This document shows, piece by piece, positions 7,024-38,536 of a stretch of 39,675 nt of DNA. The notes below the pieces were generated by a model. The model had not been told where the DNA came from and made no database searches. It saw nothing but the letters and a program-made list of their open reading frames with translations. The translations under genes and the position numbers were made by a program. Source of the DNA: a virus; the IMG/VR virus record IMGVR_UViG_3300009786_001527, positions 1 through 39,675 of that record. One strand, 5' to 3'. Every line of letters begins with the position of its first letter. The stretch's first letter is position 1.

Positions 7024-7040
7024 AAACTAAAGGAGGAATC

Positions 7041-7250: not shown

Positions 7251-7254
7251 TAGA

Positions 7255-9676: not shown

Positions 9677-9680
9677 AACG

Positions 9681-10499: not shown

Positions 10500-10501
10500 A
10501 T

Positions 10502-12076: not shown

Positions 12077-13056
12077 CTTATATTCTAATTGATACAGCAA
12101 ATATGTTTTTTAGGGCACGGCACGTTGCCCGCGGCGATCTAGAGATGAAGATTAGTTTATGTTATCATATTATGTTTAATAGTATTAAGAAAGCATTTAA
12201 TGACTTTAACGGGTCACATGTTATATTTTGTTTAGAAGGCCGCAGTTGGCGACGAAGTGTTTACGAACCTTATAAAAGAAATAGAGATGCTAATAGAGAA
12301 GCACTAACTCCAAAAGAATTAGAAGAAGATAAAATGTTTTGGGATGCCTATCAAGAATTCTTAGAATACTTAGATACTAAAACAAATTGTACAGTATTAC
12401 AAGAGCAAAATAGTGAAGCAGATGATTTAATTGCACGTTGGATACAAAATCATCCAGACAATGAACACGTTATTATAAGCAGTGACAGCGACTTTCATCA
12501 ATTAATTAATGATAAGGTTAGTATGTATAATGGTATTGCTAATCAACACGTTACTATTAATGGGATATATGATGACAACGGTAAAATAGTTATGGATAAG
12601 AAAACTAATATACCAAAAGTTATTGCTGATCCTGAATATATTTTATTTGAGAAATGTATACGTGGCGATTCAAGTGACAATGTGTTTAGTGCATATCCGG
12701 GTGCCCGTAAAAAAGGCAGTCGTAATAAGACAGGAATACATGAAGCATTTGAGGATAGGCACAATCAAGGCTTTGCGTGAAATAATTTTATGTTGCAAAA
12801 ATGGACAGATCATAACGATATAGAACACACTGTACGTGATGATTATGAGCGTAATAAAATACTCATAGACTTAACGTTGCAACCCGATGAAGTTAAAAAT
12901 GCTTGCGATGCTAAGATTGTTGAAGCAGTACAAAAAGATCCTATTTCACAAGTAGGAATACATTTTATGAAGTTCTGTGGCAAATATGATTTAGAAAAAA
13001 TGAGTCAACAACCAAATGACTATGCACAATTTTTAAATAAGGTATACGTAGCATGA
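12073..13056 (+). pseudogene. 5'-3' exonuclease (T4 RNase H/FEN-like), interrupted by in-frame TGA
   Basis: Structure-specific 5'-3' nuclease of the T4 RNase H/FEN family, which removes RNA primers and flaps in replication. Acidic active-site clusters are present: YILIDTANMFFRAR (D7), QNSEADDLIARW, ISSDSDFHQL and KCIRGDSSDNV. A TGA at 12778-12780 stops the frame after residue 235 (ending NQGFA). The same frame then continues without a shift to 13056 (NNFMLQKWTDHND, EHTVRDDYERNKILIDL), which is the C-terminal DNA-binding part; total about 327 codons, close to T4 RNase H (305). The TGA probably replaces TGG for Trp. It could be a point mutation, an assembly error, readthrough, or a split gene with a second start at the ATG 12790. 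The start is TTG at 12073. Confidence 0.8.
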
Positions 13057-13622
13057 AGGTATTAGTAATAGGCGGATCAAAAGGAGTAGGACTAGACATT
13101 ATTAATCATTTTGATGGCGATAGTATTAGTCGCAATGCTACAGATCCAGGATTTAATATTAGAAAGGATGAAGATCGAACAACAATAGCAAATGTATCAT
13201 TAGATTATGATATAGTTGTTAACCATGCGTATTCCGGAGACTTCTCACAGACATTAATGTTGCTAAATCTATTTGAAGTATGGGAAGAAGCGAAGCATGA
13301 AGGTTATCTTATTAACAGCGGTAGTGATGCTTCAAAGTTATATAGGATGAAGGCCCGTAAAGATCCAATGTATGCTGTATTAAAAGAAAGTCAAAATACA
13401 CTTAGTCATATTATTTCTCGTAATATACAAGAAGGTAATATTCCTATGCGTTATACAAATATTATATATGGTATGCTTGATACTGAGAAAGCACGAGCAA
13501 AACCGCATTATAAAAATGGTGTTAGAGGAGAAGATATTTGTAAAGTAATTGAGTTGCTATATAATTTACCAACGGATTGTTTGATCCCTGAGTTTGTTAT
13601 GGAAGCAAGGGATCCAGAGTAA
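13053..13622 (+). CDS. Short-chain dehydrogenase/reductase
   Basis: A classical-type SDR, short at 189 residues. The cofactor motif is VIGGSKGVGLD (residues 5-15), VVNHAYSG corresponds to the NNAG strand, the catalytic Ser is in LINSGSD (S89) and the YxxxK pair is Y107/K111 (YAVLK). The C-terminal substrate lobe is reduced compared with the usual 240-250 residues. It is joined to the exonuclease by ATGA and ends directly before a radical SAM gene with no gap. The substrate is unknown; a sugar or a product of the neighbouring radical SAM enzyme are possibilities only. Confidence 0.75.
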   Translation: MKVLVIGGSKGVGLDIINHFDGDSISRNATDPGFNIRKDEDRTTIANVSLDYDIVVNHAYSGDFSQTLMLLNLFEVWEEAKHEGYLINSGSDASKLYRMKARKDPMYAVLKESQNTLSHIISRNIQEGNIPMRYTNIIYGMLDTEKARAKPHYKNGVRGEDICKVIELLYNLPTDCLIPEFVMEARDPE

Positions 13623-14705
13623 ATGTCATATTTAGATTTATCTGAGATTCGATCAATACAAATTGATCATACGAGTAGATGTAATTTACTTTGTCCACAA
13701 TGTGCTAGAGTTGATAATGGCAAAGTAAATTCTCTTGTACCTCTTGATGAATTAACTGTTGAGGATTATAAAGTTATCTTTCCTAAAGAGATTATTAAAA
13801 ATATTACACAAATTACACAATGCGGTAATTATGGTGATGTTATAGCAAGCAATACTATTTTAGATTGTTTAGACTGGTTGCGTACAAATGGATATAATCG
13901 ATATATAAATGTTATTACTAACGGTAGTGCAAGGACACCAGCATGGTGGAAAGAACTTGCAAAAATATTAGGTAAAAACGGTAAAGCAACATTTAGTATC
14001 GATGGATTAAAAGATACAAATCATTTGTATCGTGTCAATAGCAATTGGGATAAGATAGTAGAAAATATTAAAGCATTTATAGGTGCAGGTGGCAACGCAA
14101 GATGGGATTACTTGGTATTTGAACACAACGAACATCAAGTTGAAGCGGCTAAGTTCCTTGCAAAAGAATGGGGCTTTAAAGGTTTTTATGTAAAAAAGAC
14201 AAATAGGTTTATTACTAATAAAAACTATAAAACAAATACAAGTAAAACAACCACTAAAAAAGTTAACATAGCAACGGAAGTAAAATATCAATCTAATTTT
14301 GATAGAATAGTACAGGAGTATGGTAGTTGGTCTAACTATGTAGACATTACTGAAATTGACTGTAAATTTAAAAAGCAAAAGACATTGTTTGTTGATTTTG
14401 AAGCACGTCTTTGGCCTTGCACTTGGACGGCCGCACCAATATATTTTGCAGGAAAAGATAATATACAAAAAATACAATTACATAAAATACTTGATCATTA
14501 TGGTTGGAATTTTAATAGTTTAAGACATGATAGTTTAGAATCTATTTTGGATCATGAATGGTTTAAAAAGGAATTAGTTGAGAGTTGGCATCGTACACAA
14601 AACGATGAGCCAATTGGAAAACTTATGACGTGCGGACGAACTTGTGGAACAAGTTATGATTTTAGTAGTAGTAGTGATAATAATAGAAAGTTAACGACAT
14701 TTTAA
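13623..14705 (+). CDS. Radical SAM protein with C-terminal SPASM-like Cys cluster
   Basis: A 360-residue radical SAM enzyme. The cluster motif CX3CX2C is CNLLCPQC (C20, C24, C27) after the strand IQIDHTSR. The barrel continues with ITNGSARTPAWW and TFSIDGLKDTNHLYR. The C-terminal third has further cysteines (DCKFKKQK, WPCTW, TCGRTCGTSYDF), which look like ligands of an auxiliary iron-sulfur cluster of SPASM type. SPASM enzymes commonly modify peptides. The gene is a clear paralogue of the one at 37415-38536 on the other strand (shared HTSxCNLLCPQCARV, DGLxDTNHLYRVNSN and EYGSWSNYVD). Substrate unknown. Confidence 0.85.
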   Translation: MSYLDLSEIRSIQIDHTSRCNLLCPQCARVDNGKVNSLVPLDELTVEDYKVIFPKEIIKNITQITQCGNYGDVIASNTILDCLDWLRTNGYNRYINVITNGSARTPAWWKELAKILGKNGKATFSIDGLKDTNHLYRVNSNWDKIVENIKAFIGAGGNARWDYLVFEHNEHQVEAAKFLAKEWGFKGFYVKKTNRFITNKNYKTNTSKTTTKKVNIATEVKYQSNFDRIVQEYGSWSNYVDITEIDCKFKKQKTLFVDFEARLWPCTWTAAPIYFAGKDNIQKIQLHKILDHYGWNFNSLRHDSLESILDHEWFKKELVESWHRTQNDEPIGKLMTCGRTCGTSYDFSSSSDNNRKLTTF

Positions 14706-27533: not shown

Positions 27534-28189
27534 AAAATAACAATATTATAGTAGCACTAGATGGAATGAGTTTTTATCAATCACAGTTGCTTATATCTAA
27601 AATCCGTAATGTCATTTATGGTATTAAGATTAATCATATGTTATTGCCTTACTTACAAGATTATGTTAAAGATGGATTGAAAGTGTTTGTTGATCTAAAG
27701 TTGCATGATATTCCTAATACAGTTGAAACAATATTGGAATGGTTAATTAAACAAAAAGCAGATATGACTACATTGCATTTAGCAAACGGGCCTGAATGTT
27801 TTAAGAGAATAGCACACCTTAATGTAGAAATTAAAATGCTTATAGTATGTCATCTTACTTCATTACCACAGCAAGAAATATGGCAAAGGAATACGTATAA
27901 AGAGATATGCGAATCTAAACTTGCCGCGCATGGTATGATATTATCTCCACAAGATTTAATAATGTTTAATGAATATGATTCTTCACATTCTTATAAACGT
28001 ATTTGTCCTGGTGTACGAATGCACGAACGACACGATGATCAAGTACGTGTTGGTACACCACACGATGCAATTCTTAACGGTGCTGACTATCTTGTTGTTG
28101 GAAGGCCTATTACAAAACACCTCTTCCCAGAACAAGAAATTTTAAGTATGTATACGAGTTATCCTAATCAATTTTACTTGGAGGTATAA
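27530..28189 (+). CDS. pyrF: Orotidine 5'-phosphate decarboxylase
   Basis: Makes UMP from OMP, the last step of de novo UMP synthesis. Active-site residues are visible: D11 (VALDGMSF), K33 (GIKINH), D55-x-K57-xx-D60 (VDLKLHDIPNT), and the phosphate loop near ICPGVRM and ADYLVVGRPIT. At 219 residues it is near the bacterial length of ~230-245. It starts with an ATGA overlap after thyA and ends two bases before purF. A phage-encoded pyrF is uncommon. Confidence 0.93.
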   Translation: MKNNNIIVALDGMSFYQSQLLISKIRNVIYGIKINHMLLPYLQDYVKDGLKVFVDLKLHDIPNTVETILEWLIKQKADMTTLHLANGPECFKRIAHLNVEIKMLIVCHLTSLPQQEIWQRNTYKEICESKLAAHGMILSPQDLIMFNEYDSSHSYKRICPGVRMHERHDDQVRVGTPHDAILNGADYLVVGRPITKHLFPEQEILSMYTSYPNQFYLEV

Positions 28190-28191
28190 TT

Positions 28192-29568
28192 ATGTGTGGT
28201 ATTATAGGAGTATATAATGTTGATGAAGCGAGTAAATATGCAACATTAGGTTTACATAATTTACAACATAGAGGTCAAGAAGGTGCAGGAATGATCTCTC
28301 GAACAAGTAAATTCCATTTTCATACTAACTATGGTAGAGTACATGATGTGTTCGGCGACCCCGAAGTTATAGAAAAATTACCAGGTGATATGGCTATAGG
28401 TCACGTACGATATAGTACAGCAGGCGGCCCAAGTGAAGCAAATATACAACCTTTATTTTATAACTTAGACTTTGGTGAATTTGCTATTGCTCATAATGGT
28501 AATTTTACAGACGGTGAAGAGGTAAGGCAAAAATTAATATCCGATGGTGCTATTTTTCAAACAACTACAGACACAGAAAACATTCCTCATATAATGGCAC
28601 GACAATTTAAAAACAAATCTCCAGTAGATAGACTTATTGATGCTCTTCAAGAAGTTAATGGTGCATTTAGTATCATTGCATTCATTAATGATAAAATGAT
28701 TATCGTTAGAGATCCGTCCGGGTATAGGCCTTTATGTATTGGGAAATTTGATACAGGATATGCCGTAGCGTCAGAATCGTGTGCATTAGATATTATAGGT
28801 GCTACAGAAATTAGAGATGTCGAACCGGGTGAAGTTATTATATTAGATAAAACTAGGGCCGGTCTTAAGGACGAATTAAAAGCACACTTACTAGATTGGG
28901 ATGTTAAACAAAAGTTCTGTATTTTTGAACATATCTATTTTGCTAGGCCAGATTCAGTCTTTGATAATAAATTAGTTTATTCTGTGCGTAAACGCATAGG
29001 GGAAGAACTGGCAAAAGAATCTGGTGTTGAATGTGATATGATAGTTCCTGTACCAGACTCGGGTGTGCCTTCGGCATTGGGATATGCACAACAAATGGGA
29101 ATACCATTCGAAGTTGGCATTACACGTAGTCATTATAGCGGCCGAACATTTATTCAACCTACACAGTCTATTAGAAATTTAGGTGTTAAGTTAAAGCATA
29201 GTGCAATGCGTTTATTCAAAGATAAGTCTATTACAATTGTTGATGATTCAATTGTAAGAGGTACAACATCTAAAAAGATAGTAGCGATGGCCAGAGAAGC
29301 AGGAGCAAAAGAAGTACATATGCGTATTGCTTCACCACCTGTAACAGGCCCTTGTTATTATGGCATCGATACTCCTACACGTAAAGAATTAGTTGCTTCT
29401 TCGTATACGGTTGAGGAAGTACGTCAATATATTAATGCTGATACATTAAATTATTTGTCAGTGTCAGGCTTATATAACGCAGTTAATAATGGTAATGAGA
29501 GTGGCCATTGTGATGCTTGCTTTACAGGAAATTATCCTACTAATGTATTAAAGAGCCCGACTCATTGA
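28192..29568 (+). CDS. purF: Amidophosphoribosyltransferase (4Fe-4S type)
   Basis: First committed step of de novo purine synthesis: PRPP plus glutamine to phosphoribosylamine. The N-terminal nucleophile is C2 directly after Met (MCGIIGVYN), so there is no propeptide. Glutaminase motifs LQHRGQEGAGM and IAHNGNF follow. The PRPP site is TIVDDSIVRGTT (residues 348-359). Cysteines C243, C388, C440 and C443 match the 4Fe-4S ligands of the Bacillus subtilis type. The length of 458 is full. The terminator at 29554-29576 includes its last codons. It is the last gene of the nucleotide operon. Such a gene in a phage is uncommon. Confidence 0.95.
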   Translation: MCGIIGVYNVDEASKYATLGLHNLQHRGQEGAGMISRTSKFHFHTNYGRVHDVFGDPEVIEKLPGDMAIGHVRYSTAGGPSEANIQPLFYNLDFGEFAIAHNGNFTDGEEVRQKLISDGAIFQTTTDTENIPHIMARQFKNKSPVDRLIDALQEVNGAFSIIAFINDKMIIVRDPSGYRPLCIGKFDTGYAVASESCALDIIGATEIRDVEPGEVIILDKTRAGLKDELKAHLLDWDVKQKFCIFEHIYFARPDSVFDNKLVYSVRKRIGEELAKESGVECDMIVPVPDSGVPSALGYAQQMGIPFEVGITRSHYSGRTFIQPTQSIRNLGVKLKHSAMRLFKDKSITIVDDSIVRGTTSKKIVAMAREAGAKEVHMRIASPPVTGPCYYGIDTPTRKELVASSYTVEEVRQYINADTLNYLSVSGLYNAVNNGNESGHCDACFTGNYPTNVLKSPTH

Positions 29569-29605: not shown

Positions 29606-29911
29606 TTAAGAGGCTGTTTCGAGTCGAGCAACTGACCAATCTACGCCAATGGTAATCTCGCCCCAGGTCGCTTTCCAAGTATCATACTGTTCTTCACTAT
29701 CCCAATTGCCTGTGTGTTGAATTACCGAATCACTAACACGTTCAAGTGCCCACCCATTAAAACCATCTGCAACTTCAAGATCGTCAACAATATTAATTGG
29801 ATCTATTAAGTTACTGTCCATTTTAAATATCTTCATGATACTAATATCATCTAATACACTCATATCGTCTGCTCCAATATAAGAAATTTCGCTTACTATC
29901 TCGTATGCCAT
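29606..29911 (-). CDS. Small Trp-rich protein, paralogue A (candidate maturation substrate)
   Basis: A 101-residue acidic protein starting MAYEIVSEISYIGADD. It is closely related to the gene at 30054-30362: both begin MAYE, share DPINIVDDLEVADGFNGW-type sequence, an HTxNWDSExQ segment and a WKAxWGEI segment, and end in ...LET. There are five tryptophans, four of them in the conserved C-terminal half, and no Cys. The start at 29911 (GGAGATTAAA just upstream) matches the paralogue; a TTG at 29923 is less likely. Each copy has its own promoter motif, leader and terminator. It lies immediately downstream of a radical SAM/oxygenase operon on the same strand. It may be a substrate of that system; it could also be a virion protein. 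No known family recognised. Confidence 0.75.
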   Translation of the reverse strand: MAYEIVSEISYIGADDMSVLDDISIMKIFKMDSNLIDPINIVDDLEVADGFNGWALERVSDSVIQHTGNWDSEEQYDTWKATWGEITIGVDWSVARLETAS

Positions 29912-29930
29912 TTTAATCTCCAATTGTTTA

Positions 29931-29961
29931 TGTTCATGAACTGAGCATAGTTATATTTATT
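29931..29961 (-). promoter_or_regulatory. Late-type promoter and palindromic leader, copy A
   Basis: On the minus strand AATAAATA (29961-29954) is followed by TATGCTCA and the palindrome GTTCATGAAC (29941-29932), ending 20 bases before the start codon. The whole leader is nearly identical to copy B at 30381-30410. AATAAATA fits NATAAATA late promoters; the palindrome could be an operator or an RNA element. Confidence 0.6.
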
Positions 29962-29995
29962 AACTTTGTAATGGAATCGATCTACTAACGTATTA

Positions 29996-30024
29996 AAAAA
30001 CCCGGCTTACTAAGCCGGGTTTTT
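29996..30024 (-). terminator. Bidirectional terminator between the two small genes
   Basis: AAAAACCCGGCT (29996-30007), loop TACTA, AGCCGGGTTTTT (30013-30024). The stem of A/T and G/C pairs gives a U tract on both strands. It stops the transcript of the gene at 30054-30362 before promoter copy A, so each small gene is a separate unit. Confidence 0.88.
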
Positions 30025-30053
30025 GTCGTTACTATATATTTTTGCAAAAACTT

Positions 30054-30362
30054 TCAATCAGGTGTTTCTAACGACGTTATTGTCCAATCATCACCGGGAA
30101 CAATTTCGCCCCAGGCTGCTTTCCAAGCATCGTGCTGGGATTCACTATCCCAATTGCTTGTATGTACAACAACATTGCTGTCTGTCCGTCTTACGGTCCA
30201 GCCATTAAAACCATCTGCAACTGCAAGATCTTCAACCATATCGATTGGATTTAATAGATTGCTTTCAGTTTTAAATTTATTCAATATTTGGCCGGTACCT
30301 AATGTAATTACATCATCCATTGCTCCAATATAAGTGATTTCGGATACTCTTTCGTATGCCAT
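30054..30362 (-). CDS. Small Trp-rich protein, paralogue B (candidate maturation substrate)
   Basis: A 102-residue protein starting MAYERVSEITYIGAMDD, paralogous to the gene at 29606-29911. Conserved blocks: NPIDMVEDLAVADGFNGW, VVVHTSNWDSESQ and DAWKAAWGEIVPGDDW. The N-terminal third after ITYIGA is the most divergent part, with a short insertion and deletion between copies. GGAGATTAAA precedes the ATG. Same strand as, and 46 bases beyond, the aminotransferase-like gene. The small size, the duplication and the location next to peptide-modifying enzyme families make it a plausible precursor or target, but no leader cleavage site can be proven. Confidence 0.75.
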   Translation of the reverse strand: MAYERVSEITYIGAMDDVITLGTGQILNKFKTESNLLNPIDMVEDLAVADGFNGWTVRRTDSNVVVHTSNWDSESQHDAWKAAWGEIVPGDDWTITSLETPD

Positions 30363-30380: not shown

Positions 30381-30410
30381 GTTCATGAACTGAGCATAAT
30401 TATATTTATC
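30381..30410 (-). promoter_or_regulatory. Late-type promoter and palindromic leader, copy B
   Basis: Minus strand GATAAATA (30410-30403), then TATGCTCA and GTTCATGAAC (30390-30381), 19 bases before the ATG of the gene at 30362. The motif overlaps the stop codon of the aminotransferase-like gene. Sequence and spacing repeat copy A. Confidence 0.6.
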
Positions 30411-31302
30411 AACTCTGTAATGGAATAGATAAACATACGCGGTTAATAATACCATTGCGGGTATATTTGTCCCATTTTGCATCGTTTGATAACCCAAATA
30501 TTACTGTATCACTTGGTGTTAAATCTAGTTCTTTACATAAATCAAGTTGTTTCCGTCTATATTTTTCGTAAATAAAGTCTGGTGAAAACTTTTTCATTAG
30601 TCCAGTATGTATTTTCATATTAAGTTTAGGCAAATAATTCCAGTCGTTGCACATTGCTAATGGGGTATCCAATTGATCTTTTGATAGTAATATTCCAACT
30701 CGCATAAATCCTGTGCAAAACATCTTTGACAAACTAAATGCTACACTACGAACATGTGGATATTTCGTTAGGTCCAATGCATCGGGACTATAATAGATGC
30801 CAAAATATGCAAGGTCAAGCATTACATTTGTATTCTCTAAAAACTTCATACGTTCATCAAAGTCGTCTAAGCAATTTCCTGTCGCGGCAAATGGATAACT
30901 TACTATCGATCCGTGGCTTATATATGGGCCGGCCGGCAGCGGAACTTTATCTGTCATACGTATACGTTTGTTTGCTTTAAATGATGTGTGGTATGGATAC
31001 TCACCTGGAAATGTATATACTCTGCCATTACTAATATTGTAATGGTTTTCAATTGCTTGGGTGTTTCCTAATGTAATATAAGAATGTTTAAATTTGTTTA
31101 AACCTTTAATTTTAAATAATGTAGAGTCATCGACCCAATCTAAAAATTGTGATTTAAACTCATCATTGTTGCAAGATACGTGCAGTGAGGCTGGGCCTTT
31201 CCCGCTATCAAATAGTTTTGGGCCACCGCCTATATTATACACAAGTTCCTTGTGTACTTCTTCATCGAGGATGGGCCTCGCACCTATTGTTGTTTCAAAC
31301 AT
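30409..31302 (-). CDS. PLP-dependent aminotransferase-fold protein (fold type I), short
   Basis: A 297-residue protein with the active-site order of fold type I aminotransferases: an Asp-x-x-Tyr pair D163/Y166 (VMLDLAYFG), the Schiff-base lysine K193 in AFSLSKMF, and R201 eight residues later (GFMRVG), as in aspartate aminotransferase. A G/N-rich SYITLGNTQAIENHY lies at the cofactor-binding start. It is about 100 residues shorter than typical class I enzymes, mainly missing N- and C-terminal small-domain parts. It is the last gene of the minus-strand operon; its ATG overlaps the upstream TGA (TGATG). The reaction is unknown: transamination, decarboxylation or a peptide amino-group reaction are all possible. 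Confidence 0.75.
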   Translation of the reverse strand: MFETTIGARPILDEEVHKELVYNIGGGPKLFDSGKGPASLHVSCNNDEFKSQFLDWVDDSTLFKIKGLNKFKHSYITLGNTQAIENHYNISNGRVYTFPGEYPYHTSFKANKRIRMTDKVPLPAGPYISHGSIVSYPFAATGNCLDDFDERMKFLENTNVMLDLAYFGIYYSPDALDLTKYPHVRSVAFSLSKMFCTGFMRVGILLSKDQLDTPLAMCNDWNYLPKLNMKIHTGLMKKFSPDFIYEKYRRKQLDLCKELDLTPSDTVIFGLSNDAKWDKYTRNGIINRVCLSIPLQS

Positions 31303-31847
31303 CAAATCATTTCCTTTAATATTGTAGGTAAGGATTGATCAATTTTACATAACCATTCGTTGTAACTGCGTTTTTCTAAATCAATTCCCTCAGGTCTTTC
31401 CCTGGCCCATTTAAAATCAAAAGCCATTAGTTGATCATTATGTAACGTTAAATTGCTTAGACTTCCGTTACGTTTAAATACATTATTCTCTTTAAAAAAT
31501 GCATACATTTCGATTATTTGTTCTTTTATATCTGGAATAGTTTTATGCAAATCCCCAAGCATATATAAATCTAATAGATCACAACCATAGTATTTTTGAA
31601 TAATTATATTATCTTCAACTGATACTAGTTCAGGAACCCATTTACCTTTTAATGTTTTAAGCCAGTGGGCTTCATTATTAAATGCTTTGTTTATTTGTTC
31701 TTCAGTAAACGTTGTTGGCTTTCCTGAAACTGTAATACCTCCTACTTTATATTCTTTTTTAATTAACGTTTTATCACTGTTAATATATACTTCAGCAAGT
31801 GTTCCAGTTTGTTTAAGTGGGTCAAAAATTATATTCCATTGTTTCAT
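31302..31847 (-). CDS. Kinase-fold protein with degenerate catalytic loop
   Basis: A 181-residue protein that follows the protein kinase/aminoglycoside phosphotransferase layout: a strand lysine (TLIKKEY, K30/K31), an alpha-C type glutamate E59 (NNEAHWL), a hinge-like IIIQKYYGCDLLDLY, a catalytic-loop equivalent KRNGSLSN, and DFK in AFDFKWA instead of DFG. The catalytic Asp of HRD appears as Asn. It is only about two-thirds of a normal kinase, so it may be an inactive binding protein. ATGA overlap with the oxygenase gene upstream and TGATG overlap with the aminotransferase-like gene downstream. Confidence 0.6.
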   Translation of the reverse strand: MKQWNIIFDPLKQTGTLAEVYINSDKTLIKKEYKVGGITVSGKPTTFTEEQINKAFNNEAHWLKTLKGKWVPELVSVEDNIIIQKYYGCDLLDLYMLGDLHKTIPDIKEQIIEMYAFFKENNVFKRNGSLSNLTLHNDQLMAFDFKWARERPEGIDLEKRSYNEWLCKIDQSLPTILKEMI

Positions 31848-32524
31848 TCGAAAAATCCTGTAAGGCTAAGACGATAGTTGTCACCTGCAGAACGATCTAC
31901 TCGTTCTACTTTATGCACAACTCGTTTATTAACGAACACTATACGATTTGGCAAGGGTGCAATATACATACCAAATCCTGGATCGAGAACAACTTGGCTT
32001 TCATTATCTAAATCAAATGTTGGTAGTATTTTTTTAATTTCTTTAGAATACATATCCATTGGTTCAACGTCAATGCTATGTTCTTTATAAACATTAAACT
32101 CAGTGTTGGGAGATGCTATAAGCATATTGCCTCCCCAAGTATGTTTCCATTGCTTATGTAAATAAAATGTGTATGCTCCAGCAAACATACCAGAGTCTCG
32201 ATGCCAACTTAGTTCTGCACCAGCGGCATAGGCGTGCATCATTAAACTAAAGTTACTCCAATCTGCACGGTGCTCGGATGCATATTCGTGTACTGCTCTC
32301 ATAAAATTACGGAAGGGAACTGGTGCCATGACAAGTCTATCATATTTGTATTTCTTATCAGATTTATATATAGTGCCAGCGTTTAGTTTATAGATTTTAT
32401 CGTCACCATATTCGAGTTGCTTTAATTTTAAGCATTCCGCTTGTTCTCTAACTAGATCAAGGCTAGTTTGATCTAGGAAGTTATCTATAATTGTTGCTTG
32501 TTCAGATTCATACGTGATTTTCAT
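31844..32524 (-). CDS. 2-oxoglutarate/Fe(II) oxygenase, prolyl hydroxylase-like
   Basis: A 226-residue double-stranded beta-helix enzyme. Iron ligands H108 and D110 are in LSWHRDSGMF and the distal H204 in RVVHKVERV; R218 in NYRLSLTGFF would bind 2-oxoglutarate. WGGNMLIASP between them is typical of the prolyl 4-hydroxylase-like group. The family hydroxylates protein or small-molecule targets. ATGA-linked to the kinase-like gene; 17-base overlap with the gene before it. Confidence 0.82.
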   Translation of the reverse strand: MKITYESEQATIIDNFLDQTSLDLVREQAECLKLKQLEYGDDKIYKLNAGTIYKSDKKYKYDRLVMAPVPFRNFMRAVHEYASEHRADWSNFSLMMHAYAAGAELSWHRDSGMFAGAYTFYLHKQWKHTWGGNMLIASPNTEFNVYKEHSIDVEPMDMYSKEIKKILPTFDLDNESQVVLDPGFGMYIAPLPNRIVFVNKRVVHKVERVDRSAGDNYRLSLTGFFE

Positions 32525-33239
32525 TTAATATTCCTAAATTAGTAAACAATGATAAAGCATGTTTTTCTTTTGGCGTCTCGCTCTTAAAGTTATTACTGCA
32601 ATGCAATTGGGTTGAATCAAAAAATATAATGTCACCAACCTTCCATTTAATTACTGTTTCAATTGACAATCCATGCAAGTTATCGTAAGGCATATGAGTT
32701 AAGTATTGTTCATACAATTTTTTATCAATATTTTTATTAGTATAATGTTCTAAATGTGTATAGTCTGTTATTTTTATATTTTTATCAGGTGTAAAATGAT
32801 TATACCGATCGCTTTTAAGAAAATGTGCTCCTACTCCATAATGTCTTTGAGTTAACATAATAGTATAACAGTTTTCACTATCGGTTGTCAACGGTATAAG
32901 TATATTTTTATACGGGGTTATGTTTTTTTCATGTGGTGTATCTGTATGCACTACAAACGGCGTTGTAGTTCTAAAATAATTGCCGCCAGTTTTATGTACA
33001 GGTAATGGCAATTCATCTTTAACTTTTTCTAATATAAACTCCCATAGTTCAGCATCCACATTAACATTTTTAACATTTGACTGCTTTTGTTTAAAATGTG
33101 TTTCTTTAAGTTTTAGTTCTTTAACTAGTAACCATTGAATATCGTATTCATCTAACTTTTCTAAGCAAACCTTAGGTGGACTAGCAAGTCGTTTTGCTTC
33201 TTTTACAACGTTAGGGTTTAAATTGTGGATTGATGTCAT
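32508..33239 (-). CDS. 2-oxoglutarate/Fe(II) oxygenase-like protein
   Basis: A 243-residue protein whose C-terminal half looks like a double-stranded beta-helix: H98/D100 in FVVHTDTPHE, then YKNILIPLTT, a distal H213 in FFDSTQLHCSNNF and a basic residue before HALSLFTNL that may contact the cosubstrate. The N-terminal ~75 residues are helical and could bind a partner. Similar proteins occur in marine phages without an assigned target. It overlaps the radical SAM gene upstream by 29 bases. Confidence 0.72.
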   Translation of the reverse strand: MTSIHNLNPNVVKEAKRLASPPKVCLEKLDEYDIQWLLVKELKLKETHFKQKQSNVKNVNVDAELWEFILEKVKDELPLPVHKTGGNYFRTTTPFVVHTDTPHEKNITPYKNILIPLTTDSENCYTIMLTQRHYGVGAHFLKSDRYNHFTPDKNIKITDYTHLEHYTNKNIDKKLYEQYLTHMPYDNLHGLSIETVIKWKVGDIIFFDSTQLHCSNNFKSETPKEKHALSLFTNLGILNENHV

Positions 33240-34368
33240 AAAAATTGTTACCTCTAATCGTATCTAGCCTTTCTATCCAGTCTGTAAATTTGTTCCATTT
33301 TTTTGTAGGATTTTCTGCACGCAACCTTTGGGCAATATGTTCTAAGTGTTGTACGGTTTCTAGATTATTAATTAGTTCCTTTCGAAACTCATCAGGGATG
33401 TGTTTTATATGTAAATTATCTGGTTTACTCAGGATTCTAAACATACCTCGTTCTGCAGGCATCGGCGCCCTCATTAAGTTTTTTATATACAAGAAATTCC
33501 AATACTCATGTATGTTAACTAGGTGTGCTATATTTAAAACACTTACAACTGTATTTGTTGATAACAGATAGTTGTTATTTTCTTTAAACAGTTCAAAATA
33601 TTTTTGTATATTCTTTTCTATTGTTTTCCAATCGCTATGATAACGTACATATTCTGCAACGTCTCCAATTCCATCGATACTCATAATAATATGCACTCGT
33701 TCAAAATGTTTCCAATAGTTTTTAAATTTGTATGGATCGTGCATAAGATTAACAATATATACTAATCTAATATTTTTAGCAATATCGTGTTTAATAAATT
33801 TTTTAATTAAAGATAGATGTTGTGGCATCATTAAAATTTCGCCACCTGCTAGTTTAATAGTTTTTAGATTTTTTAATATATCCCAACTTAATTGCTCAAT
33901 TTTAAATGACTTTTCTACGCCGCTGGCATTCTCAACAATACGGTCGCCGAAACTGCTAAACAATTCTCCTTTTGCAAGACCGTATAACTGTTGTTCATCA
34001 TCATACCATTTAGAACTATTATAACTTCCACACGTTACACAAGCAAGGTTACATAAGTTACCTAAATTTATTTCCATTGTTTCTAGTCTAGGTTCTGCTT
34101 GAAATCCTCTTGCATCATTATGTATTTGCCTATGACTTTTGCCGCCTTGTGCTTCATGTTCTGAACAAGTTACACAATTTTTAGGCAACGGCTCGCCATT
34201 AAGCATACCTTGCCTAACCTTTTGCATATAAGGACTATCAAACATTTCCTTAACGTTTTTCGCTGGTGGATGATCGGCCATTCGCCACCAGCAACAAGGA
34301 GTAACTTTGTTATTATCAATATAAGTATGAGAAAAGGCAGCATTGCAATAAGATGTTTTCTTATCCAT
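33211..34368 (-). CDS. Radical SAM protein with N-terminal twitch-like Cys domain (1)
   Basis: About 385 residues from ATG 34368. N-terminal cysteines C8, C25/C26, C65 and C68 (TPCCWW and NCVTCSEHEAQGGKS) resemble a twitch or half-SPASM auxiliary cluster placed before the barrel. The radical SAM motif is CNLACVTC (C106, C110, C113) and the SAM-binding motif is LAGGEIL. SIDGIGDVAEYVRYH is shared with the two related genes upstream. The alternative start at 34395 overlaps the preceding gene by 26 bases and has no clear ribosome binding site. Target unknown; N-terminal-twitch radical SAM proteins occur in marine phages and bacteria. Confidence 0.85.
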   Translation of the reverse strand: MDKKTSYCNAAFSHTYIDNNKVTPCCWWRMADHPPAKNVKEMFDSPYMQKVRQGMLNGEPLPKNCVTCSEHEAQGGKSHRQIHNDARGFQAEPRLETMEINLGNLCNLACVTCGSYNSSKWYDDEQQLYGLAKGELFSSFGDRIVENASGVEKSFKIEQLSWDILKNLKTIKLAGGEILMMPQHLSLIKKFIKHDIAKNIRLVYIVNLMHDPYKFKNYWKHFERVHIIMSIDGIGDVAEYVRYHSDWKTIEKNIQKYFELFKENNNYLLSTNTVVSVLNIAHLVNIHEYWNFLYIKNLMRAPMPAERGMFRILSKPDNLHIKHIPDEFRKELINNLETVQHLEHIAQRLRAENPTKKWNKFTDWIERLDTIRGNNFYDINPQFKP

Positions 34369-34369
34369 T

Positions 34370-35602
34370 TTAAATTCCGTCAAATAAAAATTCATTTAAA
34401 GGAAATAATTTTAAATAATTCGTTCCTTTGCTAACATCATATGCGTCTAGAAATGTTTTTAATTTTCGTATTTCATCATAATTTGGTTCTAAACTAGAAT
34501 AATTATCGCACATATCTAATATGTGAGATTGATATTTTTTATATTGTCTAAAATCTTGCTTCGCAACAAGTTCTTTAACACGTTTTAATTTATTTCCATA
34601 CTCTTTCATATAAAATTTAGAAGGCTTAGATACAAAATTATAATGCGGAACAACTCCGGGTGTATTATCATCTAACCATTGACATATTGTATCTAAGTAT
34701 TGTATATTAAGTATACTTAATGCAACATTACAACGCATTCGAGTTATTTGTGGATGGCCATACCATTCATTATAGTATTCTTTAAAGTTTATTTGAAAAT
34801 TATCCCAATTGAAATTAGTTCTAACATATTCTCCTTGTTCGCCAACTCCATCAATACTAAATCTAACAAATACAGTATGTCCTGCATTAAAAAGTCTTTC
34901 TAAATATTCATAATGTTTAGTTTTAAATTTCGCTGGCCAGTACCCATTAGTGCTATAACTGATTTGCTTTTTTGTTGCATCTTTTGGAGCATTTAGTATT
35001 AAATCTAATAACGGATAAAAGTCTTCGTGTATTACTGGTTCGCCGCCAAACAATTGAATGGATTGGATATCATTATAATTATCTTTTATCCATTTAAAGT
35101 ATTGCTGTCGTGTTTCTTTTGGGTCGATATCTCTGTTCATCCAAGATAATGCAGTGTCACTAAATCCTACATCTTCTTCCCACAAAGAACTACATATTGA
35201 ATGACACGTTAAGCATTTAATATTACATAAGTTACTAAATTTAATTTCTACCCATTTAGGGCCCATAGTTTTAATAGCAGATGTTCCGCGTTCTGGCCAA
35301 ATGTCTGATTCAAATACTTTGCGGTAACTTTTATCGCCGCCACTTGCTTCGGATTGCCAACAATCGTTACAAGCAGGATGTTTTTCTCCTGCTACTAATG
35401 CTTTCCGTAACTCTTGCAACGGTGCATGATTATTAAATTGTATCTCGCCGCTCTCAAGCGGCTGATATTGTTGTCGCGGGCAAATACGCCACATACCGAG
35501 TCCGGTATCAATACTATACCATTCCCACGGATGAGCACAGGCCGTATCTGTTTGCTTAGGACTGTCCGGATGGACTAATTTTTCTTGGGTTCTCCAACTC
35601 AT
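34370..35602 (-). CDS. Radical SAM protein with N-terminal twitch-like Cys domain (2)
   Basis: A 410-residue radical SAM protein. N-terminal cysteines C22, C41, C78 and C81 (ACAHPW, RICPRQQ, ACNDCWQSEASGGDKS) form a probable auxiliary-cluster domain. The barrel motif is CNIKCLTC (C126, C130, C133), with LFGGEPV for SAM and RFSIDGVGEQGEYVRT. It shares order and motifs with its two neighbours but is divergent enough to have its own substrate position. Start at 35602 overlaps the AspH-like gene stop (ATGA). Confidence 0.87.
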   Translation of the reverse strand: MSWRTQEKLVHPDSPKQTDTACAHPWEWYSIDTGLGMWRICPRQQYQPLESGEIQFNNHAPLQELRKALVAGEKHPACNDCWQSEASGGDKSYRKVFESDIWPERGTSAIKTMGPKWVEIKFSNLCNIKCLTCHSICSSLWEEDVGFSDTALSWMNRDIDPKETRQQYFKWIKDNYNDIQSIQLFGGEPVIHEDFYPLLDLILNAPKDATKKQISYSTNGYWPAKFKTKHYEYLERLFNAGHTVFVRFSIDGVGEQGEYVRTNFNWDNFQINFKEYYNEWYGHPQITRMRCNVALSILNIQYLDTICQWLDDNTPGVVPHYNFVSKPSKFYMKEYGNKLKRVKELVAKQDFRQYKKYQSHILDMCDNYSSLEPNYDEIRKLKTFLDAYDVSKGTNYLKLFPLNEFLFDGI

Positions 35603-36162
35603 ACTAATGTACCTACTATGTGTATACGTTCGTCAACTGGTGATCCATTAAATGCAGAATGATAGTGCCCATTTGTACTAACCTTCCATATTTTTCCTGT
35701 AGACAGATGAAATGATTCTTCTTCGATTACCATACGACAGCCAGGATGTGTAACTACAGGAATATGTATTCTATCCTCAGTATCTTTATGCCAAGTTAAT
35801 GCAGTTTTACGTATATTAACCATTATTCTAATTCTTCCTAGTTGATAATTTTTCTTTAAGTTTTTTAGTAGTTCAAACGTATACGGAAATTCTTGTAATT
35901 CGTGATTAAGTTCTGTAAAATCTTCTTCCCTTAACGGTATTTCTCTATCATATTGCTTAAATTTTCTATCATTCTCTGTAGCATATAAACGAGAGCCGCA
36001 TCCATGATACCATGGGTCTTTACAATCTACAGGATGCGTTAGGCATAACTGCTTATCCCAATAATGTAATGGTTTTTCTGCAATTATATATAATATTTCT
36101 TCTTCTAATACTCCGGGCCCGTCATGGGCACTAAGTTCCGTATAGTATTTGCCTACTATCAT
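35599..36162 (-). CDS. Aspartyl/asparaginyl beta-hydroxylase-like 2OG oxygenase
   Basis: A 187-residue AspH-like protein from ATG 36162, which overlaps the radical SAM stop (TAATG); an earlier in-frame start at 36192 is less likely. Iron-site residues H125 and D127 (LTWHKDTEDRIHIPV) and a distal H168 (NGHYHSAFN), with R179 (DERIHIVG). AspH-type enzymes hydroxylate Asp or Asn side chains in proteins. Embedded between two radical SAM genes in the operon, it supports a protein- or peptide-directed pathway. A Cys-rich segment near residues 40-55 (KQLCLTHPVDCKD) is unusual. Confidence 0.8.
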   Translation of the reverse strand: MIVGKYYTELSAHDGPGVLEEEILYIIAEKPLHYWDKQLCLTHPVDCKDPWYHGCGSRLYATENDRKFKQYDREIPLREEDFTELNHELQEFPYTFELLKNLKKNYQLGRIRIMVNIRKTALTWHKDTEDRIHIPVVTHPGCRMVIEEESFHLSTGKIWKVSTNGHYHSAFNGSPVDERIHIVGTLV

Positions 36163-37418
36163 TATTCCATACCTATTGTTGGTGCGCCCCAACCTGTATT
36201 CATTAATGTAGCAAACTTTGGAACTGTATCAGCAAACTTCTCGTTACGTGCTTTATCTAATTTACTAGTAAAGTCAACAAACTGCGGTATTAAATGACTT
36301 AAATCATCAGCATTCATATAGTTGCAAAGTTGATTCCAGTTTTGTTTTTGCTTTTCGTTTGGGCCGTTGTCCCACAATTGTTTCATTACAATATCCTTAC
36401 AATGCTGTGTTAAAATAGGCAAACTTAAACAACTAGGTGCCGCGGCATGTGTATGATTTAACCATGTACTATTACTAAATGGTTCTTTGTAATATTTATC
36501 CATCATTTCCGCCCACCAGTTAGTTATGTTAGGAACGTCTAGTATATTATAAACTGTAATTGTAGGACGAGAGCCCACAGTAATATTCATATCATGACTT
36601 AATTCCATAAGACGTTGTGTTACTTTTTTAACTGTATTAAAATTAGTAGGGTGTCGTACATATTCTATTACAGGGCCAATACCATCTAAACTTGTAGCAA
36701 ATTCAACGTGCTTGAATTTTGACCATAAGTTAATTAAATTCTTTTTAGGCATAATTGTTAGATTAGTACTATAATTTAAATAAACATCTTTTGCTTGTCC
36801 CATGTCTACTAACTTCTGTAATATTACCGAATATTCAGGCATAATAAAAGGCTCACCACCAGTCATTTTTAAATGTCTAATGTTAGGTAACACCTCATCA
36901 AGTTTTGACATATCGATAGTTCGTGGCTCTGGATGTTCTTCAATATACTTAGGTATGTCGTCGGGTCTCCATCCGTGATATTCTTTTGTAACTTCCCAAT
37001 CCTTATACCAGTTAGTGCTAAATGCTGGGCCGCACATACGACAACGTATATTACAACGATTATTAAAACTTAATTCTAGCCATGTAATCTTAGGATTATT
37101 AGTATCTAAATCATAGTGTAGGTCTCCTAAGCGTTCAATGTCTCGATTATAATTTTGCCTAAGACTTGTGTGCTTGCCGGCATCTTCCTCTTGCCAACAC
37201 TTTATACATCCACTATTCCTTCTACCAGATAGCATATCATCGCGCAGATTAGTTTGAAAATCTCCTGTAAAGATTTCCTCTAAACTATAACCACGTATGT
37301 TATTTTCTTTTGGAACTTTTTGTCCTGTATAACGGCAGCAAGGTTTTACTTGTCCGCCAGGCCCTAAAAACTGATGGTTCCAGCCGAAACTGCAAAAGGT
37401 ATCGGAAGGCCAATTCAT
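36162..37418 (-). CDS. Radical SAM protein with N-terminal twitch-like Cys domain (3)
   Basis: A 418-residue radical SAM protein. N-terminal cysteines C9, C27/C28, C71 and C74 (VKPCCRYTG and GCIKCWQEEDAGKHTS) give a twitch-like auxiliary cluster. The barrel motif is CNIRCRMC (C122, C126, C129), with MTGGEPFI and the ATSLDGIGPVIEYVRH strand. The C-terminal ~80 residues are helical. It is coupled to the SPASM-type radical SAM gene upstream (ATGA) and to the AspH-like gene downstream (TAATG). Best of the three matches to the N-terminal-twitch radical SAM type. Confidence 0.88.
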   Translation of the reverse strand: MNWPSDTFCSFGWNHQFLGPGGQVKPCCRYTGQKVPKENNIRGYSLEEIFTGDFQTNLRDDMLSGRRNSGCIKCWQEEDAGKHTSLRQNYNRDIERLGDLHYDLDTNNPKITWLELSFNNRCNIRCRMCGPAFSTNWYKDWEVTKEYHGWRPDDIPKYIEEHPEPRTIDMSKLDEVLPNIRHLKMTGGEPFIMPEYSVILQKLVDMGQAKDVYLNYSTNLTIMPKKNLINLWSKFKHVEFATSLDGIGPVIEYVRHPTNFNTVKKVTQRLMELSHDMNITVGSRPTITVYNILDVPNITNWWAEMMDKYYKEPFSNSTWLNHTHAAAPSCLSLPILTQHCKDIVMKQLWDNGPNEKQKQNWNQLCNYMNADDLSHLIPQFVDFTSKLDKARNEKFADTVPKFATLMNTGWGAPTIGME

Positions 37419-38536
37419 TTGTTTAATATAATCCTTTCTGCATTAGATGAGCCGAGTCCACTAGTAAACTCATAATCTGTGCCGCAAGTTCTACCACACG
37501 TATGTAACTTTCCAGGAGTATCTTTTTGTGTATTTGACCAACTCTTAACTAAATCTTTAGCATACCAGTCGTGTTGTAATATGTTTTCAAGTTTAAAATT
37601 ACGTATGGAATTAAAGCCTGGACTATGTATGGCTTCCAATGCTTGTAATTGTTGTTTTTGTATATTGTTTGTTCCAATAAAAAATTCTGGTGCGCCTACC
37701 CAACAACATGGCCATACTTTTCCTTGAAAATCAATATAAATTGTTTTATCTTTTTGATACTTACATTCTATAGGAGTAACATCTACATAATTAGACCATG
37801 AACCGTATTCTTGTAATACATATTCAAATTTTGTTTTATTTTTATTATCTTTATCAGATATAACTCGCAGTCGTTCACCAGTGTTTTGTTTAAAAACTTG
37901 CTCGGTATCCCGTGTTGTATTGTTTTTAAATTCTTGATTGGCTACAAATCTACTAGTATTTTTTATTACCATAGACTTAAAACCCATTTCTTTTGCTAAT
38001 GCTTTTGCTTCTTCAACTTGGTGTGCGTTGTGATCAAATATTAAGTAATCCCATCTAGCATTACCACCTGCATCAATAAATGCTTTAGCATTTTTCATTA
38101 TAATATCAAAGTTACTGTTTACACGATATAAATGATTTGTATCTGCAAGGCCGTCTATGCTAAAATAAACTTGATCGCGCGGCCTGTTAAAAATAATTGC
38201 TAATTTCTTCCACCAATCGGGTTTTCTTGCACTGCCGTTTGTGTACAATTGCATAGATTTAACACCAGAATAACGTAACCAAAAAGCACACTCCATCCAA
38301 GTTCCACTAGCAATACTATCACCATAACTGCCGCACCAATATACCCTATCCAGTTGCGGAGCAAATTCGGGTGTAAAGATCTTCTTATAATCTTTTAGTG
38401 TAAGTTCAGATAAAGGCAATTCTGGATTAAGTTGTCCTTCGTGTACTCTTGCACACTGTGGGCAAAGTAAATTGCACTTGCTGGTATGCTCGAGGTGAAC
38501 TACTTTAATTTCATCTAAGTTTAAATATGTGTTCAT
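37415..38536 (-). CDS. Radical SAM protein with C-terminal SPASM-like Cys cluster, first gene of the minus operon
   Basis: A 373-residue radical SAM protein, paralogue of the gene at 13623-14705. Motif CNLLCPQC (C21, C25, C28), TNGSARKPDWW, YFSIDGLADTNHLYRVNS, then C-terminal cysteines (ECKYQKDK, WPCCWVG, TCGRTCGTDYEF) likely binding an auxiliary cluster. It is the 5' gene of the operon that runs to 30409. The intergenic gap to the divergent gene at 38596 holds the likely control region. Peptide modification is the best guess from the SPASM layout; no substrate is proven. Confidence 0.87.
   Translation of the reverse strand: MNTYLNLDEIKVVHLEHTSKCNLLCPQCARVHEGQLNPELPLSELTLKDYKKIFTPEFAPQLDRVYWCGSYGDSIASGTWMECAFWLRYSGVKSMQLYTNGSARKPDWWKKLAIIFNRPRDQVYFSIDGLADTNHLYRVNSNFDIIMKNAKAFIDAGGNARWDYLIFDHNAHQVEEAKALAKEMGFKSMVIKNTSRFVANQEFKNNTTRDTEQVFKQNTGERLRVISDKDNKNKTKFEYVLQEYGSWSNYVDVTPIECKYQKDKTIYIDFQGKVWPCCWVGAPEFFIGTNNIQKQQLQALEAIHSPGFNSIRNFKLENILQHDWYAKDLVKSWSNTQKDTPGKLHTCGRTCGTDYEFTSGLGSSNAERIILNK

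Follow-up and report, generated by a model that had tools for sequence, protein, structure and literature searches.

A conserved cassette of radical SAM, 2-oxoglutarate oxygenase, kinase-fold and PLP genes in marine phages and its possible role in surface glycoconjugate tailoring

We analyzed nine genes in a viral record of 39,675 nucleotides (IMG/VR IMGVR_UViG_3300009786_001527, positions 1 to 39,675; the window is this whole stretch). The nine genes are a single operon-like block, and g5, g4, g3, g2 and g1 with g6 and g7 form the core of a cassette conserved in marine phages. We give somewhat less than an even chance to the reading that we prefer, namely that the cassette forms a late branch, devoted to tailoring, of a pathway for glycoconjugates and so makes or decorates a sugar-like group of an unusual kind on the surface of the cell or of the virus. 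A preliminary description, made from the sequence alone, had proposed a new phage system for maturation of peptides or virion proteins.

The nine-gene block and its proteins

All nine described ORFs were present on the minus strand at 30409-38536 and encode proteins of 181-418 aa. Successive ORFs overlap by 4, 31, 4, 26, 29, 17, 4 and 4 bases; the overlaps themselves had been described, but their range, given as 1-29 bases, was 4-31 when measured. The products are three radical SAM (rSAM) proteins with an N-terminal twitch domain, one with a C-terminal twitch domain, three Fe/2OG-type oxygenases, a kinase-fold protein and a HisC-like PLP protein (Table 1). g10 is cut by the end of the contig, and the island probably continues beyond the record. 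No recognisable structural gene, and no gp23, was found in the window record; gp23 was present in 3 of 7 records searched. Tandem proteins of ~100 aa encoded at 29606-30362, on the same strand downstream of the cassette, were considered as substrates and rejected, as they had no homologues in related loci.

Table 1. Positions and characteristic residues or matches of the cassette genes and of related genes in the window
Gene	Position	Strand	Features
g9: rSAM with C-terminal four-Cys twitch/SPASM-like domain	37415..38536	-	C21/C25/C28; C258, C277, C347, C351
g8: N_Twi rSAM	36162..37418	-	twitch C9/C27/C71/C74, CxxxCxxC at 122/126/129; NF033640 E 3e-98
g7: aspartyl/asparaginyl beta-hydroxylase-like Fe/2OG protein	35599..36192	-	PF05118 E 2e-8; H135xD137...H178...R189 invariant in alignment
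g6: N_Twi rSAM	34370..35602	-	NF033640 E 6e-67; orthologues 41-44% in G021, L084
g5: N_Twi rSAM	33211..34395	-	NF033640 E 4e-83; orthologues 42-46% in G021, G010
g4: PhyH-like Fe/2OG oxygenase fold (predicted)	32508..33239	-	H98xD100...H213...K226 conserved; AF2 model and Foldseek
g3: 2OG-Fe(II) oxygenase	31844..32524	-	PF13640 E 2e-8; H108xD110...H204...R218 invariant in alignment
g2: small kinase-fold protein	31302..31847	-	invariant Asn127 replaces catalytic Asp; N132, D144-F145-K146 kept
g1: short HisC-like fold-type-I PLP protein (predicted)	30409..31305	-	invariant S-L-S-K194, D164
g10: fourth N_Twi rSAM, divergent strand, open 3' end at contig end	38596..39675	+	NF033640 E 3e-60
SDR-like protein, paired with next rSAM gene	13053..13622	+	homologous SDR/rSAM neighbours in L008, L010, L035, L037
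rSAM / C-terminal twitch paralogue of g9	13623..14705	+	54% to g9

Proteins were assigned to the N_Twi rSAM family (NCBIfam NF033640) when the whole-protein score exceeded the curated cut-off of 170 bits. This was the case for g5 (279.6), g6 (226.5), g8 (329.6) and g10 (204.4), the last of which is incomplete and matches model positions 2-263 of 398. g9 is not a member (26.1 vs the cut-off of 170 bits). It gave a weak Pfam Radical_SAM match and a SPASM match at its C terminus, in agreement with its description as a C21/C25/C28 rSAM protein with a SPASM-like C terminus. In the N_Twi proteins a four-Cys auxiliary domain lies N-terminal to the CxxxCxxC motif; C9, C27, C71 and C74, as well as the motif residues C122, C126 and C129, were kept in 33 of 33 aligned members. 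The N-terminal domain is homologous to the C-terminal domain of g9 (hhalign E 1e-7, prob 94%). Therefore the twitch reading, proposed earlier for g5, g6 and g8, is right. The domain also weakly resembles the auxiliary domain of BtrN.

The rSAM paralogues of the window are mutually 22-26% identical, whereas orthologues in other phages reach 32-56% (for g8, 56% in L010 and L008). Orthologues are thus closer to the window genes than the window's own paralogues, and we infer that each rSAM protein is retained with a distinct specificity. The diversity of the N_Twi members was too great for a joint alignment of all of them to be used in scanning, and single-protein scans with g6 or g1 found no viral relatives. 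The AF2 model of g8 (pLDDT 88.9) matched rSAM proteins. The best Foldseek match of this model was the peptide maturase SkfB (3e-6), and its structural neighbours were mixed, SkfB and CteB standing beside the nucleoside/sugar enzymes BlsE and DesII; searching with the model does not discriminate between peptide and sugar substrates.

The HxD...H metal triad and the basic 2OG-binding residue of the Fe(II)/2OG oxygenase superfamily were intact in g3, g4 and g7. Three double-stranded beta-helix (DSBH) oxygenase-like proteins, one of them AspH-like, had been predicted, and Pfam recognised g3 and the AspH-like g7. Profile searches gave no sequence match for g4. Its AF2 model (pLDDT 81) matched the Fe/2OG oxygenases SnoK, SnoN, MysH, proline hydroxylase and PhyH (best Foldseek match E 7e-7, prob 1.0, TM about 0.5), so the DSBH reading holds for this protein as well. 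Among the structures nearest to the model are KanJ and HygX, which are aminoglycoside oxygenases, and the nogalamycin enzymes SnoK/SnoN. Twitch and DSBH assignments had been left open to refutation by structure models; the domain homology and the g4 model uphold them. PHROG labels on g3 relatives ('DNA endonuclease V', 'minor coat protein') were rejected, as the 2OG motif is intact.

Profile searches gave g2 a kinase fold (best PDB kinases 4e-5; RIO1 5e-4). In 15 aligned members the catalytic-loop Asp is replaced by an invariant Asn127, a position assigned by spacing to a conserved Asn and the DFx motif, and DFK is kept. g2 thus lacks the residue that marks active protein/APH-type kinases, and the earlier term, degenerate kinase fold, is apt. 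g1 gave weak HisC matches (2e-4 and 8e-3), and its Schiff-base lysine and pyridine-N aspartate were invariant in 10 members. g1 is thus a HisC-like fold-type I PLP protein and a putative enzyme, in line with the aminotransferase fold previously suggested. A tblastn search of g2 against 50,697 phage records gave no match.

Conservation in marine phages and in Bdellovibrionota

Homologues of g6, g3, g5, g4, g2, g1 and g7 recur on one strand in 4 other marine phage contig lineages at 32-51% identity, with g2 and g1 nearly always adjacent. On a 179,647-bp phage contig the order is g6-(B12 rSAM, rSAM)-g3-g5-g4-g2-g1-(GNAT-like)-g7, contiguous and on one strand. A second phage carries g3-g5-g4-g2-g1, and two further contig lineages (L233, L234) hold the same families. 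The grouping exceeds chance, given this synteny in other phages. Conserved synteny had been named in advance as the check on a phage unit, and the homologues indeed co-occur rather than being scattered. Among 14 non-redundant g2-bearing loci (twelve fetched by g2, L022 and L057 through other queries), an rSAM gene was nearby in 13, g1 in 12 and g7 in 9; g1 was near g2 in 13 of 25 loci of relatives.

The islands that hold the cassette are rich in rSAM genes, with a median of 9 (5-14) per roughly 20 kb. Such islands are widespread in marine phages, large and variable: one rSAM sub-family alone gave 457 hit stretches among viral contigs, and hundreds of viral contigs encode the family. Related islands, and Bdellovibrionota as well, also pair an SDR gene with an rSAM gene; family 7 was present in 29 loci, and an L010 protein related to the SDR-like protein of the window matches adh_short. 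IscU/ErpA, considered as a marker of the islands, was present in 10 of the 41 loci retrieved through g2 and in 0 of 78 A4-seeded loci within reach; a general link to Fe-S supply is therefore not supported.

The system is not confined to phages, as the rSAM family is chromosomal in 55 of 192 Bdellovibrionota genomes. Their N_Twi arrays share with the phage islands the rSAM families, g1-type PLP genes, f3/f5-type genes and an SDR gene beside a twitch rSAM gene. They differ in being cellular and in lying next to GT2, NTP-transferase and GDSL genes, which are clustered together with PLP and N_Twi genes. The Bdellovibrionota stretches examined contained no g2, g3, g4 or g7.

The closest systems reported are those of marine T4-like phages in which a variable island, close to tail fibres and LPS-type genes, carries several rSAM genes. 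In its available parts, PMC7029224 describes rSAM gene cassettes in host-recognition islands or clusters of T4-like pelagimyophages and places them, with LPS genes, in the tail-fibre island; PMC5332604 similarly reports a T4-like genome, TARA_ERS488813_N000010, with 12 rSAM genes. Fe-S assembly genes occur in some of these phages. The descriptions set them apart from the present cassette: the available text of both papers counts or mentions rSAM genes, and names neither the N-terminal twitch family, nor the 2OG/PLP/kinase cassette, nor a conserved order. NF033640 ('twitch domain-containing radical SAM protein'), which includes g5, g6, g8 and g10, is a family name only; its description gives no function, and the accession is used by no indexed open paper. 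The nine-gene set and its synteny are in no paper of the searchable literature. The claim of novelty has to be qualified, as rSAM cassettes in such phages had been reported and NCBIfam already names the rSAM family.

Possible function of the cassette

In the pathway that we tentatively propose, g1 would act with PLP on a small precursor resembling a sugar or an amino acid, adding an amino group to it, taking one away or decarboxylating it. Separate 5'-deoxyadenosyl-radical steps by g5, g6, g8, g9 and g10 would bring about changes such as dehydrogenation, epimerisation, deoxygenation or the formation of C-C/C-S bonds, with the extra cluster of the twitch enzymes as acceptor or donor of the second electron. 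g3, g4 and g7 would use O2 and 2-oxoglutarate to hydroxylate the product or to introduce a double bond into it. g2, devoid of the kinase catalytic Asp, may bind nucleotide or substrate and either scaffold g1 or perform a non-canonical transfer. Glycosyltransferases of the island or the host would move the product onto the host envelope or the tail fibres. A decorated envelope could block superinfection and alter receptors, and rSAM genes swapped between islands could alter the decoration, as swapped transferases do in O-antigen clusters.

Companion genes favour surface-glycoconjugate tailoring over peptide maturation without settling the choice, and so lend weight to the glycan chemistry mentioned earlier as an alternative. 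Genes with glycan-type chemistry in the islands encode UDP-glucose/GDP-mannose dehydrogenase, carbamoyltransferase, DegT aminotransferase and class III aminotransferase. Set against O-antigen-type clusters, with their glycosyltransferases and nucleotide-sugar enzymes, the picture is mixed: UGDH, DegT and carbamoyltransferase occur in the islands, GT8 in the Vibrio phage K566 and GT2 in Bdellovibrionota. Pfam GT2 and GT8 (PF00535, PF01501) were absent from the window and searches of island contigs with them were nearly empty, which lowers our confidence in this reading. Also against it, none of the cassette enzymes has a characterised orthologue, and g2-g1 occurs without a nearby rSAM gene in some T4-like phages. 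The commonest non-rSAM companions in phage islands, f3 and f5, matched nothing in Pfam and nothing credible in the PDB, so that their resemblance to methyltransferases/glycosyltransferases is a judgement by eye. The rSAM enzymes that tailor amino-sugar and nucleoside antibiotics (BtrN, SpeY, BlsE and DesII type) resemble the cassette proteins in their rSAM core and, on the reading preferred here, in their sugar-like substrates; they gave weak profile and fold matches, but sequence similarity is far below membership. BtrN and SpeY also have a twitch-type auxiliary cluster; the extra domain of BtrN follows the rSAM core, whereas that of g5, g6, g8 and g10 precedes it.

Alternatively, the rSAM and 2OG enzymes might target side chains, either in a virion protein (e.g. 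of the tail fibre) or in a small peptide of ribosomal origin, with g2 perhaps aiding recognition. We regard such maturation as rather unlikely. In known systems, peptides are substrates of SPASM/twitch rSAM enzymes and of AspH-type hydroxylases, protein side chains are also possible targets of AspH-like and PhyH-like enzymes, and the g8 model matches SkfB best. The cassette proteins share rSAM core and auxiliary clusters with the maturases SkfB, CteB, SuiB and PqqE; they differ in permuted domain order and in the lack of a precursor peptide, and all NCBIfam peptide-maturase models scored far below cut-off. A general Pfam scan found no RRE (PqqD-like) domain among the matches of g1-g10. No conserved precursor-like small ORF was common to the cassette loci, and the window had none next to the cassette. 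Other islands encode a conserved protein of 72-83 aa (f14), which lies between f3 and twitch rSAM genes in 60 of 78 A4-seeded loci and might be a ribosomal scaffold; an rSAM gene was within 4 kb in 74 of 79 f14-seeded loci, and the contigs or loci of the other 5 measured just 4.2-5.2 kb. However, f14 is conserved end to end without a variable core, and no f14-like ORF was found in the window, in two cassette-bearing phages or in the Bdellovibrionota stretches examined. We therefore rejected it as a RiPP precursor and keep it as a lead only; its PDB profile matches to designed repeat proteins reflect helix composition and were ignored. The earlier proposal of maturation thus finds little in the neighbourhood to sustain it, as the neighbours point to glycan tailoring.

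The phage might also carry auxiliary metabolic genes for a small molecule that diffuses freely, be it a cofactor, a signal or a toxin directed at competitors, but we consider this unlikely. Taken together, the PLP, amidinotransferase-like, carbamoyltransferase, B12-rSAM, 2OG and QueC-like PP-loop proteins resemble the content of natural-product clusters, and natural-product oxygenases are the closest folds to the g4 model. No transporter, NRPS/PKS or carrier protein was recognised beside the cassette, however, a secreted compound would be of little gain to a lytic phage, and tail-fibre genes adjoin the island in L022, the one contig checked.

It is quite improbable that independent accessory cassettes have simply collected at a hypervariable locus, each acting on its own outside any joint pathway. 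Island order and content do vary widely, g2-g1 alone or few N_Twi genes alone occur in some phages, and the available text of PMC7029224 describes such a region as a hypervariable island. Nevertheless, the g5-g4-(g3)-g2-g1 order, the strand and the close packing are kept across phages at 32-51% identity, which is best explained by selection on joint function.

Hypermodification of DNA or tRNA through rSAM and 2OG steps is very improbable: some 2OG and rSAM enzymes elsewhere act on nucleic acids, and the window holds QueE, PTPS/QueD-like and GTP cyclohydrolase genes, so that the phage very likely makes a 7-deazaguanine, but the cassette is without a nucleobase transferase, DNA glycosyltransferase or tRNA-binding domain, and its relatives are located in islands of the surface type and, in Bdellovibrionota, in glycan-type neighbourhoods.

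Surface tailoring may be part of a broader, doubtful picture: a modular, hitherto undescribed rSAM/2OG 'assembly line' of N-terminal-twitch rSAM batteries, a pseudokinase-PLP pair and oxygenases, whose rSAM core would be common to marine phages and predatory Bdellovibrionota. It would build a chemically new surface decoration, or a new ribosomal product on an f14 scaffold, and so influence which cells the phage or predator can attach to.

The islands, at 5-14 rSAM genes in some 20 kb, are an exceptional viral investment in oxygen-sensitive enzymes. Identifying the product would account for a large unannotated share of the genomes of marine phages, and new radical chemistry might come to light. 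For expression and testing, the cassette offers a minimal set (g5, g4, g3, g2 and g1). N_Twi-like genes also occur in the cultured Vibrio phages KVP40 and K566, the latter with 2 GT8 genes interleaved with 4 N_Twi genes, which makes part of the question testable in laboratory phages.

Gene content of the cassette

We analysed the nine cassette genes, g9 (first) to g1 (last), of the viral record (39,675 bp, IMG/VR) together with the other genes of the window. The cassette ORFs overlap by 4, 31, 4, 26, 29, 17, 4 and 4 bases. Since the neighbouring gene g10 is cut by the contig end, the island very probably extends beyond the record.

Coordinates of features in the window
Position (strand)	Feature	Remarks
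1059-1834	cupin-like and cytidylyltransferase-like pair	labels by eye
6331-9676	GTP cyclohydrolase, PTPS/QueD-like and QueE genes	
9654-11134	polysaccharide lyase family protein (PF14099) adjoining cation-efflux family protein (PF01545)	
13053-14705 (+)	SDR and twitch rSAM pair	far from the nine genes
26107-29568	row of consecutive ORFs: dihydrofolate-reductase-like, thymidylate synthase, OMP-decarboxylase-like, PurF-like amidophosphoribosyltransferase	thymidylate synthase by PHROG, rest by eye
29606-29923, 30054-30362	tandem paralogues, ~100 aa	same strand, 3' of g1; no family match
30409-38536 (-)	g9 to g1, nine consecutive ORFs	181-418 aa each
from 38596	g10	divergent from g9; ORF open at contig end

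Four proteins, g5, g6, g8 and g10, scored over the cut-off of NF033640 ("twitch domain-containing radical SAM protein", NCBIfam; here N_Twi). Seven cysteines were invariant across 33 aligned N_Twi members, four of them N-terminal and three in the CxxxCxxC motif. In an hhalign comparison the N-terminal domain of this family proved homologous to g9's C-terminal domain (E 1e-7), and it showed weak similarity to the auxiliary-cluster part of BtrN. The N_Twi and g9 domains are one type of twitch domain, placed on opposite sides of the radical SAM (rSAM) core. The AF2 model of g8 (pLDDT 88.9) matched rSAM enzymes. Its top structural matches were mixed, comprising the peptide maturases SkfB and CteB, the nucleoside or sugar enzymes BlsE and DesII, GDGT-MAS and viperin, and therefore the fold of g8 does not tell the substrate.

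Among the remaining proteins, g3 matched PF13640 and g7 matched PF05118 (Pfam). Sequence searches gave no family match for g4, which grouped with Fe/2OG oxygenases by its AF2 model (pLDDT 81) and Foldseek (TM ~0.5). The metal triad and the basic 2-oxoglutarate residue were kept in all three proteins. The kinase fold of g2 carries an invariant Asn in place of the catalytic Asp, and in g1, a short PLP protein resembling HisC, the Lys and Asp are retained.

Conservation of the cassette and rSAM-rich islands

Scanning with the window-type g2 family gave 25 loci. We observed g1 near g2 in 13 of them, directly downstream in nearly all cases. The order in L238, a 179,647-bp contig, was g6, B12-rSAM, twitch rSAM, g3, g5, g4, g2, g1, GNAT-like, g7, and its near relative L237 carries the larger gene set too. 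We found g3, g5, g4, g2, g1 with g7 close by in L236, the series g6, g3, g5, g4, g2, g1, g7 interrupted by insertions in L233, and the larger set reordered in L234. Cassette genes of these loci shared 32-51% identity with those of the window, and g8 shared 56% with its counterparts in the phage loci L010 and L008, compared with 22-26% between g8 and its N_Twi paralogues in the window. Since orthologues are closer than paralogues, the rSAM copies of the window are old separate lineages, not recent duplicates. Past the cassette, the 179-kb contig carries homologues of the window ORFs at 25199, 20256, 19020, 14719 and 12073 and of QueE, which suggests a shared genomic context.

In 14 non-redundant g2-bearing loci (twelve fetched with g2, two via other queries), the genes near g2 were rSAM (13/14), g1 (12/14), f16 (11/14) and g7 (9/14). 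The f16 protein is P-loop-like, ~245 aa long, and adjoins g2 in most g2 loci (L040-L051, L053); it is missing from the window and had no Pfam and no credible PDB match. The g2-g1 pair is the smallest stable unit, because it occurs without nearby rSAM genes in some T4-like phages. In those phages (L227, L229, L230, L235, L251) it is followed by gp59-like and gp32-like genes (labels by eye). Ahead of it, where the contig extends far enough, lie transferase-like genes and a Fe-S carrier of the ErpA type.

One N_Twi sub-family matched 457 viral stretches. We counted 5-14 rSAM ORFs per locus (median 9) in 37 loci of at least 19 kb fetched with query A4. Further, the window and 97 loci together supplied 1,810 ORFs for clustering. 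The recurring companions, by loci, were g1-type PLP (37), SDR (29), QueC-like PP-loop (23), carbamoyltransferase (21), kinase-like g2 (18), UGDH (14), AspH-like g7 (13), and g4-type, DegT aminotransferase and amidinotransferase-like (11 each); since the loci were selected on N_Twi or g2 content, these counts describe islands and are no test against a random background. Two further frequent families, f3 and f5, had no Pfam match and no credible PDB match. Tail-fibre genes adjoin one island (L022). An SDR/rSAM pairing recurs in phage islands and in Bdellovibrionota, and pairs resembling by eye the cupin-like and cytidylyltransferase-like genes lie within islands L127 and L129 (families 37 and 36).

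Chromosomal arrays of the same rSAM families occur in Bdellovibrionota; NF033640 was detected at 1e-40 in 55 of 192 sampled genomes, near GT2, NTP-transferase, GDSL and g1-type PLP genes. Arrays of N_Twi and twitch rSAM lie in predatory-lineage chromosomes (G012, G027, G136 and others; L036, L141-L145). Cultured Vibrio phages carry smaller rSAM sets. KVP40 encodes three N_Twi-like proteins below the NF033640 cut-off, two with a QueC-like gene nearby, and in K566 two GT8 genes are interleaved with four N_Twi genes.

Possible function

The analysis establishes gene content, conserved residues, synteny and distribution. We tentatively propose that the cassette tailors a glycan. The building block would be small and sugar- or amino-acid-like; a PLP step would be followed by radical steps, hydroxylations and transfer onto a surface. 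We prefer a glycan over a peptide because the islands carry UGDH, DegT and carbamoyltransferase genes, GT8 sits between N_Twi genes in K566, the Bdellovibrionota neighbourhood has GT2, and rSAM cassettes are placed among LPS and tail-fibre genes in published work (PMC7029224). However, few classical transferases were found in phage island contigs, and f3 and f5 are without an assigned fold.

Modification of a protein or peptide seems less likely; f14, a conserved protein of 72-83 aa encoded between f3 and twitch rSAM genes, provides a lead for it. It was present in 60/78 A4-seeded loci. In 79 further loci found with f14, f3 and f5 were present in all 79 and rSAM lay within 4 kb in 74, the other five loci being just 4.2-5.2 kb long. 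Neither the window nor the cassette-bearing phages read contain f14, which may serve as scaffold, substrate or small partner. Its loci (L148-L226, L055-L132; e.g. L084:8612-8845, L010:7227-7451) are marine phage islands, in which it accompanies f5 and f3 in every case and twitch rSAM genes in nearly all. Phage records gave no match to it, and the PDB none that was credible.

The biochemical function of the cassette is possibly new. The abundance of rSAM in T4-like marine phages (PMC5332604) and rSAM cassettes in a hypervariable host recognition cluster (PMC7029224) were noted earlier. In the open literature searched, with most subscription papers outside the search, NF033640 was named in no paper and no description of the 2OG/PLP/kinase gene set was found.

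Elsewhere in the window, the GTP cyclohydrolase, PTPS/QueD-like and QueE genes make it likely that the phage produces 7-deazaguanine, and the row containing thymidylate synthase would represent phage nucleotide metabolism, with a purine-pathway enzyme included.
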